DNA of 64,000 nt, from the NCBI GenBank assembly GCA_022821725.1, contig JAJEDB010000078.1, positions 1 to 64,000 of the forward strand, read 5' to 3'. The position numbers and the translations under genes are program-made. The DNA is from Candidatus Poribacteria bacterium. Lineage in GTDB: Bacteria; Poribacteria; WGA-4E; WGA-3G. Each line of letters starts with the position of its first letter. Position 1 is the stretch's first letter. Of this stretch, positions 54,043-62,742 are shown piece by piece. Below the pieces are notes generated by a model. It had not been told where the DNA came from, did no database searches, and saw only the letters and a program-made list of their open reading frames with translations.

Positions 54043-56313
54043 ATGTCGCTGGAAAAGTGGACAACGCTCCAAACTGAACATATCCAATACCTTTCCGAAA
54101 CCCTTGCGAAACGGGAACTCGCTGCGGTCGGGCAACTGGAACCGATCGCGGATTTTGAGGAACTCTTCACGTTTGACGAAGCACACCCGACACCGACCGA
54201 ATTCACGCCAGAATACCCTGCGTGGCGGTTGGAATCTGTCGCCGCACGGGTCATAGAGGCGGTCGCGATTGCAGCCCACGAACCGCTTACGGAGCTGGGA
54301 TACCGCGAACTCGCACGTATCCTGTCAGGGCACGCTGAATATCTCTATACCTATCCAGACGGTGAACCGCGTCCGAGACTCGAAGCAGGCAGCGCCTTGG
54401 CATTGGCGGGGAGCGTCTGTGCGTCGCTTCCGCAATCGGCACTCTGGCGACTTGCCGGATTTGGAAGGATTTCGGGGGTGTTGGCGGAGGTCGCACCTGC
54501 ACCGACGGATTCGCATCTCACCCGACCGATTGATGTTGCCTTCTCGCTGGCGAACGAGCGGAACCTTCCGATCTTGGCAGCCGCGGTGAACGCCTATAAT
54601 ACCGTTCTTAAACGCAACTTCACGCCGCAGCGTCAATACAATTTTCCCTTCAGCGATAGCGACTTTTTTGAGGCTCTGAATTTGGATTTTCCGGGGATGG
54701 AAGCCGTGAAAGCCGCCATTTTTGGCGAAACTTGTGAGCCAAAACTTGCTGTTAGCAGTGGCGAAACTTGTGAGCCAAAACTTGCTGTTAAAAGTGGCGA
54801 AACTTGTGAGCCAAAACCTGTTGTTAGAAGTGCGGACGATGTAGCCGCAGCCAAATCCGCATACACCGTCTTTCGGAGAGAATTTTTAGATGCACAGATT
54901 GAACAAAAATCAATCCCACTGACAGACAGCTCCGATACCTATACGACTGCGAAAACCTACCTCGAATGCCTGCTCCGGTTGTCCATCCATCCGACACCCG
55001 CTATCACAGCGACGACAGAGATCGGTATTGCGGCACACCTCTTTCCCGAATTCCCTGGAAGTGAACAACTGCGTCTCCTCGCGCTGCGTCGCTATAAATG
55101 GATAATGGAGACGTTTTTTCATTCAGATGGCTTTCACAAGGATCGGACACTCCGTTCCCACGTTGAGGCGATTGCGGATGCTGTCAGATTCCTATCTGTT
55201 GGAGAAGAACCCGTGACGTCTGCCTGCTCCCTCGCAGAGATACAGACATCGCTGGAAAGACAAGTCGAAGCGTGTATGCGTCTGCGTCAACCCGATAACG
55301 CGTTTCCACCGCTCGGCCCGCTTCCTGCGCCGAACTTCGATGCCGCTGAACTCTGCACGATTGTCGATAAGGACTTCCGACGTGAGGGTTTTCCATCCAC
55401 TAATACCCCCTCACACGCCCTTCCTGAGACGGGTTGCTATGTCATGCGGGACAGTTGGGAACCCGAGGCACAATACCTATTTTTCGATGCACATCCATCT
55501 GAAAAACCGAGCCACACCGACACATCAATTTTCGTGTTGCACGCCCATGGCCGACACCTGACAACGGGTTCCGTTGGTGTGCTTGAGACCACCCACTCGG
55601 AGCCTGATGCACTTAACACACGATGGATAACGACACCCGCATTCGATTTCGTTGAAAAATGGGATCTTTTGACAGCAGCTCTCGGCAACGTGCAAACCGT
55701 GCCAAAAACGGCTGAGGCGCATCACAAACGCGCTATTTTCTATCTTAAAGGTGAATACTTCGTCCTGCACGATCTCGTTCTCGGTGCGGGTGCGTACACA
55801 TTGGAGCAGGTATTTCGTCTCGATCGAAAGGTTGCCCCTTATATCGTTTCCGAAGCAGGGAACATACGGACGCAGGAACCGCATCGTAGCAATCTGTTCA
55901 TCGGTGCGGTAGGGACACCCGATCTTTCGGTAACATCGAGCGGGAACAGTATTACGTATCGGAAGCATCGGGAATCGCCAATGGCAGTGAACACAGTGCT
56001 GGTGCCGATGAAGCCTGAAGTGGAAGTGCGTCCGACGCTTTCCGCTATTGAGGTGCTTACCGATCCTGATGTTTTAGGGACAGGTTTCACCCTCCGGTTA
56101 CCCAACGCGACGGATACGTTCCTCATCTCTGATGATGGCTTGGCGGAGATGTCTACCCCAGATATTCGGTGTGTCGGTGAATTTCTCTTCTTACGGCGCG
56201 ACACCTCCGGTGCAGCCGTTCAATTCGTGATGCTGAATGGGCGATTTCTGCAGGTGGATGGGAGGGTCCTTGCCGATTTTGACAAAGCCTGCGAGAGTTA
56301 TGTACGGATGTAA
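54043..56313 (+). CDS. Heparinase II/III-like polysaccharide lyase-type protein
   Basis: This 756-residue protein has an alpha-helical first half and a beta-sandwich second half of the heparinase II/III type: G-C-Y-V-M-R-D-S-W near residue 464, S-H-T-D-T-S-I-F-V-L-H-A-H-G-R-H-L near 490 (catalytic-region His), and F-Y-L-K-G-E-Y-F-V-L-H-D near 565. Family members cleave acidic polysaccharides by elimination. No signal peptide is seen, so it may be cytoplasmic. Three 12-residue repeats are inserted at 228-263. The start is only 20 bases after the STAS terminator. Confidence 0.75.
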   Translation: MSLEKWTTLQTEHIQYLSETLAKRELAAVGQLEPIADFEELFTFDEAHPTPTEFTPEYPAWRLESVAARVIEAVAIAAHEPLTELGYRELARILSGHAEYLYTYPDGEPRPRLEAGSALALAGSVCASLPQSALWRLAGFGRISGVLAEVAPAPTDSHLTRPIDVAFSLANERNLPILAAAVNAYNTVLKRNFTPQRQYNFPFSDSDFFEALNLDFPGMEAVKAAIFGETCEPKLAVSSGETCEPKLAVKSGETCEPKPVVRSADDVAAAKSAYTVFRREFLDAQIEQKSIPLTDSSDTYTTAKTYLECLLRLSIHPTPAITATTEIGIAAHLFPEFPGSEQLRLLALRRYKWIMETFFHSDGFHKDRTLRSHVEAIADAVRFLSVGEEPVTSACSLAEIQTSLERQVEACMRLRQPDNAFPPLGPLPAPNFDAAELCTIVDKDFRREGFPSTNTPSHALPETGCYVMRDSWEPEAQYLFFDAHPSEKPSHTDTSIFVLHAHGRHLTTGSVGVLETTHSEPDALNTRWITTPAFDFVEKWDLLTAALGNVQTVPKTAEAHHKRAIFYLKGEYFVLHDLVLGAGAYTLEQVFRLDRKVAPYIVSEAGNIRTQEPHRSNLFIGAVGTPDLSVTSSGNSITYRKHRESPMAVNTVLVPMKPEVEVRPTLSAIEVLTDPDVLGTGFTLRLPNATDTFLISDDGLAEMSTPDIRCVGEFLFLRRDTSGAAVQFVMLNGRFLQVDGRVLADFDKACESYVRM
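54724..54831 (+). repeat. Three tandem 36-bp repeats in heparinase-like gene
   Basis: Units 54724-54759, 54760-54795 and 54796-54831 share GGCGAAACTTGTGAGCCAAA and encode G-E-T-C-E-P-K-L-A-V-S-S and two variants. They keep the frame. Confidence 0.9.
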
Positions 56314-56371: not shown

Positions 56372-57535
56372 TCAATGTGTGAGGAGATACGATGTTGTCA
56401 GATGTTGGGGCTCAATTGGATATTCGCGAGGCAAATAAATTTCAACAGGGATACCGATTCCATCAAGGGACTTGCATATCAACGGGGCGACATCTGTCCA
56501 GTTTAAACCTCCGTTTGCACAGCCTAATGCAGCCATTGCTAGTGACTGGACCTCCTCTTTTTCAGAGTTTTTTTGTAGCCATTTCAAACCGGCCTCAATG
56601 TCTTCTATACGTGATTTTGCGCGCCAATCGCGCTTTGTTGCAAAAAGCAAAAACCACTTCATTGGATTTTTGACACTCATGTTGTGTGGTTTAATATCCA
56701 TCAACTCATCTGTGACCGATACCTCCCGTTTATAGATATAAGGACGGGCAGATGTGACTTTCTTTGAGCGACATGCATTCTCATATTCCACATAAACATC
56801 TGGAAATTGTTCTTTAGCACGCAATGCCAATCCCTTTCCCATAACCCCTTTAAGGTTGACTGTAACTGTTAATGTCTGTAGGTTAGAGAAAAATATATCG
56901 CCTCCGTCAATAAGCGAAATGTTCTGACCGATTTCAGTTCGTTTATGGGGTTGGAAGAACATATCAGGTTCAGAGTTAACCACAATTTTAGGATTGTTAA
57001 CAATTTTCTGTACATCATTTTGGATCATATCGTCAGCAACGTAAACTGAATGGATGTATGCCGGTTTGACGTAATTGGGGATCAAACATTCTGCCATCAT
57101 TTTACGCTTTGACCCATCAGAATTATTCCACCAGTCGTTCTGAATGATTGATTGTTGTTTCTTAAGAATTTTCAACCCCTTAGACAAACAGTAAAATTGT
57201 GTAATTTCATTGGCAGCATCCCCATCGGTGATGACAATATCCTGCTCATCCAATACTTTTTTATTAATACCAACAACAGCAAGATCCTTTAAGTCTGTTT
57301 GATGAATAGTGCGAAACATCATGGCATTGCGGGGTTGGAAGTATAAGTTGGCATAAATCCAGAGGCTTTTTCCATCTGTAGTTTTGGAGTTCCGTTGTTC
57401 AATGCCCTTGCCCTCATAAATAGAAGTAGGCCGTAGACCTTCTCCTTCGACTCTGTCAGAGGAAAATATTCCACTCTCAAGGATGGAAGGCAAGTTGTCT
57501 TTATGTGTAATGTAGTAGAGACTTTCTATTTTCAT
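56372..57535 (-). CDS. DarT-DarG fusion: DNA ADP-ribosyltransferase plus macrodomain
   Basis: This 387-residue protein joins toxin and antitoxin. Residues 1-200 match DarT (DUF4433): Y-Y-I-T-H-K-D-N-L-P-S-I-L near 7-19, Y-F-Q-P-R-N-A-M near 65, and M-A-E-C-L-I-P with the probable catalytic E149. Residues 210-375 match the DarG macrodomain: V-N-L-K-G-V-M-G-K-G-L-A-L near 226-238, F-A-T-K-R-D-W-R near 298, I-E-A-G-L near 312, and A-A-L-G-C-A-N-G-G-L-N-W near 332. DarT modifies thymidine in single-stranded DNA; DarG removes the mark. These are normally separate genes. GAGGAAG precedes the ATG. The C-terminal transcription-control domain of some DarG proteins is absent. Confidence 0.88.
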   Translation of the reverse strand: MKIESLYYITHKDNLPSILESGIFSSDRVEGEGLRPTSIYEGKGIEQRNSKTTDGKSLWIYANLYFQPRNAMMFRTIHQTDLKDLAVVGINKKVLDEQDIVITDGDAANEITQFYCLSKGLKILKKQQSIIQNDWWNNSDGSKRKMMAECLIPNYVKPAYIHSVYVADDMIQNDVQKIVNNPKIVVNSEPDMFFQPHKRTEIGQNISLIDGGDIFFSNLQTLTVTVNLKGVMGKGLALRAKEQFPDVYVEYENACRSKKVTSARPYIYKREVSVTDELMDIKPHNMSVKNPMKWFLLFATKRDWRAKSRIEDIEAGLKWLQKNSEKEEVQSLAMAALGCANGGLNWTDVAPLICKSLDGIGIPVEIYLPREYPIEPQHLTTSYLLTH

Positions 57536-57650
57536 GGTCTTCCTCTTTGCAATGATAATTTTGCTTTATTGAGTTAGGCGGTGATTATCTATCTTTGTTA
57601 ACGCTCTGCTTCTATGCTGGTTGCAGATGTGTAGTAAAGTTCAAACAAAT

Positions 57651-58304
57651 TTAATCTTTAGGGAATGGTGTGAATATGTTACTACCTCTATCGGTTGCAA
57701 CAACAAGTTTCTGAATATTGGTGGACGATAGGTTACCTCTCAGTGAGTTAGCAACGCTCTGATCAGGAACGATAAATCGTTGGATATGTTCAGGATTAAC
57801 TTGGTTAGGCACTAAACATTCCGCCATTAACTGACGCTTAATTTCATCGGAGTTGTACCACGAAATCCATGAATCGGACTTGAGCATCTTCTGTCGTGCC
57901 TGAAGAATTTCCAGTCCTTCAGACCGGGGATAAATTCGAGTTAGTTCATCGGCAGCAAGACCATCTGTGATGAAAATTTCTTGTTCTTGCAATACAGTGT
58001 TGGCAACACCTAAAACGGCGATATTCCGTCTCGTCCTATGGTTGTCTGAATACTCCGGATTAACAAGACCATCCAGCATGGCATTGCGAGGCTGAAAAAA
58101 TAAATTCACATAGTGCCAGAGACTTTTATTCGCGGATGTATATTTGCGCCGCCGTTTATTGATGATGTCTACATTATAAATTGGCGTGTACGGAACGCCC
58201 ATTTCTCTAATCCTAGCATGAGAGAGAATTCCTCGTGAGAGAATAGAAGGCAAGTTGTCTATATGCGTAATATAGTAGAGTGCTCTTATATTTGGCTCTT
58301 GCAC
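57651..58304 (-). CDS. Stand-alone DarT-like DNA ADP-ribosyltransferase
   Basis: This 217-residue protein is a DarT (DUF4433) domain on its own: Y-Y-I-T-H-I-D-N-L-P-S-I-L-S-R-G near 10-25, F-F-Q-P-R-N-A-M near 69-76, and M-A-E-C-L-V-P with probable catalytic E162. It is clearly homologous to the N-terminal half of the next gene. GTG 58304 is chosen for AGGA six bases upstream. As a free toxin it would need a macrodomain antitoxin, which the fusion protein 115 bases downstream could supply. Confidence 0.85.
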   Translation of the reverse strand: MQEPNIRALYYITHIDNLPSILSRGILSHARIREMGVPYTPIYNVDIINKRRRKYTSANKSLWHYVNLFFQPRNAMLDGLVNPEYSDNHRTRRNIAVLGVANTVLQEQEIFITDGLAADELTRIYPRSEGLEILQARQKMLKSDSWISWYNSDEIKRQLMAECLVPNQVNPEHIQRFIVPDQSVANSLRGNLSSTNIQKLVVATDRGSNIFTPFPKD

Positions 58305-58326
58305 AATTGTTCCTGTTTGTTAATAA

Positions 58327-59088
58327 CTAATCCTCAATGATTTCTAACGCTTGCATTCGCTCAAGGGCAAAGACGCGGGTATCCTGTCGTAACTCACAGA
58401 ATCCCTCTACACATAATGTTTCACCGGATGCCCGGCTGTTTGGGATATTCAGAAACCGCTCTGGTGCTACCACGCGCGTCCTCCATCTTTTGGCACGCGG
58501 CTTTTTATACTCGAACTGAATCCGTTGCGCGTTGTCAATCGCCGATTGGATGTCCGCGAATTGCTCCGCGAATTCCGATTGTGCCGGTTTTAGCGTAACA
58601 GTGCCAAAGATATCGGCTTCTCGGTACGTCCCCCTGTAACACTCCGCACAGGTCAATGTGAGATTATCCAACGCGTTCGTCCCGCCTTCAAAGACCGGGA
58701 TATCGTGCACTAAATAGACATCCTGTTCCTCACCGCAATATGAACAGATCGAACCGTTTTCCTTGATAACCCTCCGTTGCCGTTCATCCCAATCCGGAGG
58801 CCAACACGGCAAATAGTCATAGAGTCCGGTTAGAATGGAATTTACCTTCACGAGTTTCGCACGTAAATCTTCGCCCTCCGCCGCAGGGAGGTTTTCTTGG
58901 TCTACACCCTCATTTGGTACAAAGAGCGACAAAATGAGTTGTGACTTCTGTTTTTGCAGAGCAGTTTCAATCTCATGTTTCCGCATTTGCAACAGGATGA
59001 TACACGAATAATGAAGGAAGTCCCCGTTAGAAAGGGCTATATCGTATTCATAATCGGTCTCTATCTTACATACGGTACAATAAGGCAT
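58327..59088 (-). CDS. HNH nuclease-WYL domain protein
   Basis: This 253-residue protein begins with a C-x2-C pair (C4, C7), has an HNH-type zinc nuclease domain (C115, C118, H128, G-G-T-N-A-L-D-N-L near 135-143, C147, C150), and ends in a WYL-like sensor domain (about 181-253; R-I-Q-F-E-Y-K-K and L-C-V-E-G-F-C-E-L-R near 228). WYL domains often sense nucleic acid ligands in defence regulators. ATG 59088 is chosen because CGAGGAG lies just upstream; the frame opens earlier but without support. The DarT gene starts 22 bases after its stop, so it may control or assist that pair. Confidence 0.75.
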   Translation of the reverse strand: MPYCTVCKIETDYEYDIALSNGDFLHYSCIILLQMRKHEIETALQKQKSQLILSLFVPNEGVDQENLPAAEGEDLRAKLVKVNSILTGLYDYLPCWPPDWDERQRRVIKENGSICSYCGEEQDVYLVHDIPVFEGGTNALDNLTLTCAECYRGTYREADIFGTVTLKPAQSEFAEQFADIQSAIDNAQRIQFEYKKPRAKRWRTRVVAPERFLNIPNSRASGETLCVEGFCELRQDTRVFALERMQALEIIED

Positions 59089-59501
59089 TTCAGACTCCTC
59101 GAACGTCAAGTACTCTGGAGACGTTCCTCTGAAGGTCGTTCCTGTAGAACAGGAATTACATAACTCCGGGGATACCGTCAAACTCGCCTATGATGAGGAT
59201 CACGCGTTGGGTGCCAAGAAAGCTGGAGAAGCGTCTAAAGAATCTTCCCATTGAGAGATGATCGGTTATCTCTGCGTTCTCCGGAAATTCTGTTGTAAAA
59301 GCGCACCATGCCTTAAGAATACCACGTAGAGAGTCGATTGTCAAGCGGTTTTTGCCTACCATCCAGGGTCATTCAATTGTAGGTTTTGCGTGTCATATTT
59401 TCACAGGTGTTAATACTTTCAGATAAGCAGAAGTCGCGTGACTTTTCACGCGACTTCTGCTATACTTCACCCTAAAAATTACCACACTTTTGAGGTGAAT
59501 C
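59089..59501. other. Intergenic stretch with perfect hairpin
   Basis: No gene is supported. The only marked structure is the 16-bp inverted repeat at 59426-59461; the left end of the insertion-sequence remnant probably lies between about 59390 and 59420, but no terminal repeat can be fixed. Confidence 0.5.
59426..59461. repeat. Perfect 16-bp inverted repeat
   Basis: AGCAGAAGTCGCGTGA (59426-59441) and its exact complement (59446-59461) flank CTTT. It sits 40 bases before the transposase start and could be a subterminal hairpin of the element that limits read-through into the transposase gene, or a terminator. Confidence 0.8.
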
Positions 59502-60471: not shown

Positions 60472-62742
60472 CTAATGCCGCCGGTGTGCCGAGACGGCTT
60501 GGGGGTTACACGTGTAATACTTGTGTCCCTTGCCACACGTCGTGGCGTGTGAGGTCGCACCATTACAATTCGTCCACGAATGCGCCGGACAATTCACGCC
60601 CGCTTTCTTATGCCATTTGTGTGCCGAGACAGCAGACAGGTTACACGTATAGTAGGAATGACCGGCTTTACACGTCGTGGCGTGCGAACTCGTCCCACCG
60701 CAATTCGTCCAACTATTTGCCGGGCAGACAACCTTGGGTTTGGGTTTCGGCTTGGGTTTCGGCGGCGGTGCCGTATGACCCGAATGTGAACTCACTGCCT
60801 GCGGATTGCACGTGTAATACGAATGACCCGCTGGACAGGTGGTTGCATGTGACGAGGTGCCTCCACAGTTCGTCCAACTATTCGCAGGACACACCACTTT
60901 CGGCTTCGGCTTCGGCTTGGGCTTCGGCGGCGGTGGCGGTGGTGGTGGATCCTCATCATCGTCGTCATCATCGTCATTGTTGTTATTGTTGTTGTTATTG
61001 GGGGGGAGCGTCGTCGTCGTTGTCGTCGCCTTATGCCCCTTGTGGGATTTCACCGCTTCAGCATTACAACTGTAATAACTGTGACCCGCTGGGCACGTCG
61101 TGGCATGTGACACCGTCCCTTTACAATTCGTCCAACTGTTCGCCGGGCAGACGATCGGTTTATGACCCGAATGCGCACTCACGGCAGACGCAGAACACGT
61201 ATAGTACGTATGACCCTGACCGCATTGGGTGGCATGTGACACCGTCCCACCGCAATTCGTCCAACTATTGGCGGGACACACCACTTTCTTCGTCTCCTTC
61301 GGCGGATCCGTCGTCGTCGTATGAGACGCATGTGCCGAAACTGCCGTCGCATTACACGACCAATACGTATGTCCCGCACCACACGTCGTTCGGTGTTCAT
61401 AGGCATCTGAACCCGACACCACACGATTATACGTACACTTGCCGGCTCCACGATTGTTGTTGGCACACTTGACAACCACAGGATCCGGCTTCGGATCCGG
61501 ATCCGAACCATAGGCGTGCGTGTGCGGTGTGCAGGCATAATATGAACCATAAGAACACGATTTGCCATTCTGCGTCGGACACGTGATTTTACGATGCGAA
61601 TGTGCCGAACTCGACCCAGGATCATAGGTATGTCCACACGCCTGCAACGTCGCCTTCGGGGTCACTGGATCGGGTTTCGGGGGCGCACCGACATACGCAT
61701 GTTCATGCGGAGAGCAGGCATAATACGTGCCATAAGAACACGAACGACCCTGACCATCTCGCGGACAATACAACAAACCGTGCGCCTTGTTCGCAGCAGC
61801 CGTCGACACATACATGTGACCACACGGACCTCGACGCTCCCCAGGCTTTTGATCCGGAGACACACGCTCATCGGGATAGATGTAATTCGCACATCCCTTG
61901 CCGTCATGATCCCCACGATAACAGTAGTAGTCCGAATGACCACACCCGGAGAAATACACTCGGAAATGATCTCCCGGTGTCCCCGCATCATGACCACACG
62001 GAAGCTTCGCTGAGGAACTACTACCCGTATACGCATGTTCATGCGGACTGCAGGCATAAAACGTCTCATACCCACACTTGCGATTCTGATCGTCTACAGG
62101 ACAGGCATAACTCACCGTGTGAATTGAGGAAGCGTCACAGGGGCGACCGAAATGCTGACCACAGAGGAGTTTTTGAAATGTATGAGCACTTTTCGCGCTA
62201 CCTGACGGTATTCGGCACACAGGGTACGTATGCCCCGAAGTACCGCAGTCAAAAGCGATTTGCTTGTGTTTGTCAGGCTTCCAATCGTTGGGTAAGCACT
62301 CAAAAGACGAGTGAAGTCAGCAGTTATAGGACTTTGGATCGTGTAGAGATGCTTGATATTTGGGATAAGTGTGACCGCACTTACCTTTGATTTCTGGTTG
62401 ATTCTCTATACACTCTTCTAATTTTTTCTCAATGTCCAACAAATCCTTATGGGCTTTGCGAGCAGCTTTGTCTAAATCAGATAGTTTCTCTGTCTCGGTA
62501 GGAAGTTCACGCACTAATTTTGCCAACTCTTTTGAATCCGTTGACACTGAAATGCGCAGCTTCATTTTCCACACCTTATAGTTTTGATCATCAAACGCCT
62601 TTTTTGCGTTTTGATAGCCAATCTCAGCTGCGCTTAAATCTGTTTCTAAGGACCAGCAAGCACTCAGATCCAGCGCATAAAAGGAAAAAGAAAACATCCC
62701 CACCAAGATAATTAAACTCACAAACCTCAAAACTCTTTTCAT
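60472..62742 (-). CDS. Secreted Cys/His-repeat protein split by in-frame TGA
   Basis: The frame runs for 756 codons with one TGA at 62317-62319 (codon 142). Before it come a signal peptide (to about residue 25), a helical region, and C-G-H-T-Y-P; after it the same style continues without a new ribosome site. Three units of C-G-H-x-Y with Y-Y-A-C-S-P-H-E-H-A-Y follow, then one divergent and five good repeats with C-P-A-N-S-W-T-N-C, spaced C-x7-C-x5-H-x3-C-x3-H-x4-C-x7-H-x2-H. Runs of Asn, Asp, Pro and Lys-Pro separate some units. The repeats could bind zinc or other metals outside the cytoplasm. The TGA may be selenocysteine, a nonsense mutation or a leaky stop. Start ATG 62742 fits AGGAG nine bases upstream. 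Confidence 0.65.

Follow-up and report, generated by a model that had tools for sequence, protein, structure and literature searches.

Known DarTG systems and the window fusion

The locus analysed here is most closely related to the DarTG systems. In DarTG2 (Thermus, EPEC, M. tuberculosis), two genes encode a DarT with a catalytic Glu and an antitoxin macrodomain with a catalytic Lys (PMC5179494), and the C-terminal domain of DarG occludes DarT. DarTG2 systems are further characterised by ADP-ribosylation of ssDNA at thymidine, by a toxicity that the antitoxin neutralises, and by phage defence. In DarTG1 the DarT toxin is likewise undone by an ADP-ribose hydrolase (PMC11543638), but here the antitoxin is a NADAR and no macrodomain is present. 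Both parts are found in a single chain in PDB entry 7omu ('Thermosipho africanus DarTG in complex with ADP-ribose', released 2021). No mention of this Thermosipho fusion was found in the papers searched.

The window is a stretch of 64,000 nucleotides from a Candidatus Poribacteria bacterium (contig JAJEDB010000078.1), a sponge-associated type of bacterium. It encodes a DarT domain followed by a DarG-type macrodomain in one chain, with a free DarT paralogue upstream. The first-pass annotation had presented such a fusion as new, on the ground that known DarTG systems use separate genes. This did not hold: because the 7omu fusion has been solved and solo fusions are common in the Poribacteria phylum and in Chloroflexota, DarTG is not always a two-gene system, and the DarT-macrodomain fusion is already known. 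The window fusion aligns to 7omu from residues 4-385 to 24-404 (phmmer, E 6.8e-110); the order and length of the domains are the same and the two chains are collinear over 4-385. Thermosipho africanus DarTG also has the R/W/Y/M/N pocket of the solo fusions. It differs in that the window has a free DarT upstream (T. africanus was compared as a protein alone) and in that the fused pocket of the window carries N106D, with further changes in the sister pairs.

The catalytic Glu and Lys are shared with DarTG2. In contrast to DarTG2, however, toxin and antitoxin form one chain instead of two genes, the additional free DarT constitutes a second toxin gene, and the chain ends after the macrodomain, without the DarG domain that occludes DarT. 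The NCBIfam model of DarG aligns to the fusion only at 5-154 of 338, and both NCBIfam equivalog cut-offs are missed (scores 89 and 94 vs. 150; 145 vs. 250). For NADAR, no Pfam match was found in the window proteins.

The new element emerges from comparing relatives: the pairing recurs, and the alterations of the two toxin copies lie in different regions of the enzyme. The reading favoured here, and thought somewhat probable, is that of a DarTG2-like module with two writers and one eraser, in the relatives of which the fused toxin is drifting towards the DNA-docking part of an antitoxin.

Gene organization

ORF calling gave the same coordinates for the three genes as the first-pass annotation (Table 1). 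The single chain with DarT and DarG-type macrodomain was equally borne out: Pfam places DarT at residues 7-194 (8.5e-39) and Macro at residues 226-352 (2.3e-5), and PADLOC matches residues 211-376 to DarG (5e-45). The reading frame passes from one domain to the other without a stop codon, and over 30 relatives have it intact. The free DarT, said to be a paralogue in the same orientation, is real (Pfam DarT, 9e-41), and the third gene of that orientation does contain HNH (1.6e-4) and WYL (1e-10) domains. Its likely start is the ATG; a longer TTG ORF runs into the remnant of the AAA-ATPase gene.

Table 1. Features of the locus and its flanks (positions in the window)
Feature	Position	Strand	Remarks
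HNH-WYL protein	58327..59088	minus	253 aa from ATG at 59088; syntenic neighbour, judged outside the module
Free DarT paralogue	57651..58304	minus	217 aa, GTG start, E162; Leu at the base-locking position
DarT-macrodomain (DarTG) fusion	56372..57535	minus	387 aa, ATG start; aligns with PDB 7omu over the full length
DarT (ssDNA ADP-ribosyltransferase) domain of the fusion	56921..57535	minus	residues 1-205; R48 W59 Y65 M72 D106 E149
DarG-type macrodomain of the fusion	56372..56920	minus	residues 206-387; K301; without the DarG C-terminal DarT-binding domain
Gap between free DarT and fusion	57536..57650	minus	115 nt; 113-135 nt in most relatives
AAA_35 ATPase gene remnant, upstream, internally deleted	59109..59293	minus	
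Heparinase-like gene	54043..56313	plus	bounds the slot on the other side; flank conserved within the genus

The catalytic residues had been described as kept, and the alignments agree. Glu and Arg are present in both DarTs (E149, codon 57089-57091, and R48 in the fusion; E162, codon 57819-57821, and an Arg in the free DarT), and the macrodomain Lys (K301, codon 56633-56635) is the equivalent of DarG K80. Structure prediction of the free DarT (pLDDT 78), which had been proposed as a check, matched 7omu, 7omv and 7yk3. The model of the fusion is of moderate quality (pLDDT 64; Foldseek best match 7omu, E 1e-33); the conclusions below are based on sequence and none leans on this model alone. Intergenic searches for promoter and terminator consensus gave uninformative matches.

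Elsewhere in the window, positions 60472-62220 hold a 582-aa Cys/His-rich repetitive frame with poly-Asn, poly-Asp and poly-Pro stretches, located beside a sigma factor gene.

Occurrence of the fusion and of the free DarT + fusion pair

DarT was found in 42 of the 85 genomes of the window's phylum, and the strong matches are for the most part fusions. The 400 genomes from the phylum of the Chloroflexi locus L006 contain 12 full-length fusions (that of L006 included) and a broken one. All 12 full-length Chloroflexota fusions are the sole match in their genome, as is the fusion of Latescibacterota. The paired arrangement was not seen outside the Poribacteria phylum, although most genomes are drafts, in which absences can reflect gaps. 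In phages there is one distant full-length match (27%), the others among the matches listed being macrodomain-only, and on plasmids DarT and macrodomain are separate adjoining genes.

About 10 genomes of the Poribacteria phylum carry a free DarT directly upstream of the fusion, so that for this pair the proposed conservation of the neighbourhood is confirmed. The free DarTs of the pairs in G000, G061, G075, G058, G050, G039, G038, G044 and G023 form one clade (100/99), and G013 has an independent free DarT + fusion pair. Pairing has arisen at least twice. In the genomes searched, every intact DarT of the free clade has a fusion adjoining it; the earlier suggestion that the fusion acts as antidote to the free toxin is plausible in this respect.

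Alternatively, the fusion could be self-contained like the Thermosipho africanus unit, with the free DarT as a passenger (a duplicate, a gene of unrelated function or one in decay). In favour of this, solo fusions are common and suffice by themselves, and some free DarTs are broken (extra copies in G058, and those of G034 and G046). However, R48, W59, M72 and E149 are retained in 9/9 free DarTs, which are under purifying selection (dN/dS about 0.18, a rough value as dS is near 1). The pair is moreover maintained in different genera and families, and where a free copy is present, the fused one has changed. A passenger is considered unlikely.

At L045:6553-8137 (G058), the fusion is preceded by a run of DarT genes or remnants, of which one or more are broken. 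This arrangement points to repeated gain and decay of free toxins.

Active-site residues of fused and free DarTs

PMC9967889 provided the roles of R51, Y71, M78, H119 and E160 of Thermus DarT and places H65 in the catalytic site. The Thermus sites were mapped onto the window by alignment (Table 1). The pocket signature R/W/Y/M/N/E used for comparison is the pattern found in the solo fusions here and has no published definition. Of the 32 solo fusions, which come from several phyla, all but L116 (N to G) retain R48, W59, Y65, M72, N106 and E149. The paired fusions, in contrast, depart from the signature in all 12 cases with data, which include two pair-clade members with an incomplete partner (free DarT truncated in G034 and beyond the contig end in G051). 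Fisher's test of paired vs. solo fusions gives 6e-10, uncorrected for the ancestry that the sequences share; at least two origins is the safe statement.

The changes are spread over the pocket. W59 is Leu in 11 of the 12 paired fusions, Y65 and M72 vary, and several have D, S or K in place of N106. E149 has become Gly in G061 and is retained in 10/11 sister copies. In the G013 pair the fused copy contains W59L and N106D, and the pocket of the free copy is intact. The least changed paired copy is that of the window, with 5/6 signature residues (W59 included) and N106D as the only departure. A loss of R48 in paired fusions was also considered and rejected: it reflects an alignment shift beside an insertion, with Arg at or next to the position in 10/10.

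The ARTT loop is the loop before the catalytic Glu and contacts DNA in DarT. Its D140, S142, K143 and R144 are invariant across the paired fusions and varied in the free DarTs, where the loop has a 3-aa insert. The free DarTs further have F fixed at position 65, and Ile (Leu in the window) at position 106, which corresponds to the base-locking H119. The macrodomain residues, K301 included, are kept in all paired fusions and all Poribacteria solo fusions. The complementary pattern of fused and free copies was noticed after the fact in sequences that share ancestry; in a small post-hoc test the fused half was significant (p = 0.002) and the free half was not (p = 0.24).

Taken further, these residues would allow the fused DarT to be a pseudo-toxin already, which docks the macrodomain on DNA and makes the fusion a pure antitoxin, the window included. 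The pocket of the sister pairs is indeed degenerate (W59 to L in 10/10, Y65 and M72 variable, E149G in G061) with an intact ARTT loop, and the same W59L and N106D are seen in the independent G013 pair. The window copy, however, has changed at N106 alone, and nearly all sister copies still possess E149. A finished pseudo-toxin is rated as improbable, more so than a passenger.

The chromosomal slot and the HNH-WYL gene

In the genus, the locus consists of Type ISP restriction-modification, AAA_35 ATPase and HNH-WYL genes, a slot, and then heparinase-like, STAS, glyoxalase-like, QueE-like and amidohydrolase-like genes (the last four named from sequence inspection, with no family search). The slot is occupied by free DarT and fusion in G000, G061 and G075, and also in G058, where HNH-WYL is missing. 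A solo fusion is found in G048, and more solo fusions lie at the heparinase site without HNH-WYL. The macrodomain alone occurs in G049, G071, G077 and G082, and in G076 next to an HNH-WYL remnant. Remnants are left in G053, G050, G062 and G059, and no DarT trace is found in the slot of G067, G079, G081, G083 and G084. A single site therewith offers a natural series of toxin with fusion, fusion alone, antidote domain alone, remnants and empty slot, which shows the gain of a DNA ADP-ribosylation toxin-antitoxin, its split between copies and its loss.

The first-pass annotation had combined HNH-WYL, DarT and fusion in a three-gene defence module. In such a module, WYL could be the sensor or regulator. 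The genes are on the same strand with tight spacing in G000, G061 and G075, and HNH-WYL adjoins the solo fusion of G048. Yet the same HNH-WYL locus exists without DarT in many genomes, and there are pairs elsewhere and many fusions without HNH-WYL. A co-occurrence search in the genus yielded no association (6/15 DarT-positive vs. 12/23 DarT-negative genomes, Fisher p = 0.52). The three-gene module is largely refuted and seems highly improbable. HNH-WYL, mostly single-copy in the family at 60-84% identity, is judged from this distribution to be resident at a conserved locus and not a member of the module. Of the earlier interpretation, the fusion, the paralogue and the pair remain, and the novelty of the fusion and the membership of HNH-WYL are lost.

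Macrodomain-only alleles

An intact macrodomain gene stands alone at the site in five genomes. No DarT match was found in the genomes G049, G071, G076 and G077, and the only DarT-like match of G082 is a distant domain in a WD40 protein. Four of the genes (G076 left out) form one clade (98/90) that branches within the genus's solo fusions, beside G048, whose solo fusion fills the same slot. Their pairwise dN/dS is 0.05-0.11, compared to 0.04-0.13 for the fused macrodomains, all rough values given a dS near 1. Because of the single nested clade and the low dN/dS, a single deletion probably removed the toxin domain, and purifying selection has maintained the eraser. The selection evidence indicates that a macrodomain is useful to a cell without a toxin of its own.

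This retention fits several earlier findings. Cells can be rescued from DarT by the DarG macrodomain on its own, an effect that is lost with K80A (PMC5179494). SCO6735 from Streptomyces coelicolor provides a precedent for a stand-alone macrodomain, since it reverses thymidine ADP-ribosylation and protects from DarT (PMC9411070). It is, however, a different member of the macrodomain family with another catalytic residue, and did not originate from a fusion in the same place. It has also been argued that hydrolases lacking a coupled transferase are directed against attackers from outside (PMC9503650).

Domain phylogeny of the window fusion

The fused DarT domains of the pairs form their own clade (100/100), that of the window excepted. 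The latter clusters with solo fusions from a different genus (97/93), and the macrodomain of the window lies in the pair clade. Placing the window macrodomain with those solo fusions is rejected (p 2e-11), while in the AU test the fused DarT is compatible with the pair clade (p-AU 0.405). A natural domain exchange is possible on these trees. Diagnostic residues suggest that the window fusion is a recombinant, but at this p-AU the alternative is not rejected, and the fusion is treated as a candidate and not as a proven recombinant. An assembly chimera of two strains, with a solo-type DarT domain and a pair-type macrodomain, is the least credible explanation of all and scarcely to be expected: the diagnostic residues do shift from mostly solo-type to pair-type near residue 205 and the two domain trees do differ, but there is no near-identical parental copy (best 62%, DarT domain), the AU test permits the pair clade, the frame is intact, and a natural exchange of domains is just as possible.

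Proposed mechanism

The data show the gene anatomy, the conservation of the pair, the patterns of residues and the retention of a lone macrodomain under selection; from these we infer the following enzymatic activities, antidote relation, change in specificity and defence role for the module of two writers and one eraser. The free DarT would attach ADP-ribose from NAD+ to ssDNA bases. The fusion, encoded second in an operon-like order after a gap of about 115 nt, would contribute another DarT domain and a macrodomain that removes the ADP-ribose and so serves as antidote for both DarTs. This antidote action should be mainly enzymatic, as the DarG part that occludes DarT is absent. The free DarT probably reads another sequence or base, since its DNA-reading loop and base-locking residue have changed with the catalytic residues kept. 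In the sister pairs the fused DarT is probably drifting into a specialised antitoxin, because the invariant pocket is lost and the DNA-reading loop is kept. The fused DarT of the window, judged by its residues, is probably still active. By analogy, the most likely biological role is phage defence, as described for DarTG (LeRoux et al. 2022, as cited in PMC9503650).

Several points count against this module. The fused DarT of the window does not look clearly degenerate, and its placement in the tree is ambiguous. Most paired fusions have E149 and an Arg near R48 and thus may be active. The Leu or Ile at the H119 position of the free DarTs could mean a weaker rather than a different activity. 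Finally, the module is located at fixed chromosomal sites and not on evident mobile islands.

A more general scheme is offered tentatively, and is on the whole rather doubtful. Here, a fused toxin-antitoxin would become a dedicated antitoxin once a free copy of the toxin appears: catalysis would be lost and the DNA-reading loop would steer the eraser, while the free toxin would gain a new base or sequence preference. This would have occurred at least twice, and the eraser alone would be retained once both toxins are lost. If the reading of the residues is true, a toxin domain has been turned into part of an antitoxin, and the choice of base or sequence by DarT becomes testable with the free DarTs (Ile or Leu at the H119 position, new ARTT loop).

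Other DarT architectures

Further DarT-containing chains were encountered during the searches. At L126:1839-2885, an SSB domain and a DarT domain are joined in one 348-aa protein, a ssDNA-directed toxin on a ssDNA-binding carrier. The 748-aa chain at L074:3739-5985 comprises a macrodomain, a DarT and a DarT1-associated NADAR antitoxin domain, so that a single writer is combined with the two kinds of eraser known. In several genomes of the phylum, a DarT-like domain is found at the C-terminal end of WD40 beta-propeller proteins (L074:7324-9144, L076:3589-5478, L119:2261-4813, L120:1682-4270, L121:2155-4383 and L123:589-2436). A 965-aa frame at L073:4825-7722 has two DarT matches followed by all sigma-70 factor regions, and is either a true fusion or a frame run-on. 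In the 501-aa protein at L077:3838-5343, the DarT domain is situated behind a CT398-like coiled-coil domain.
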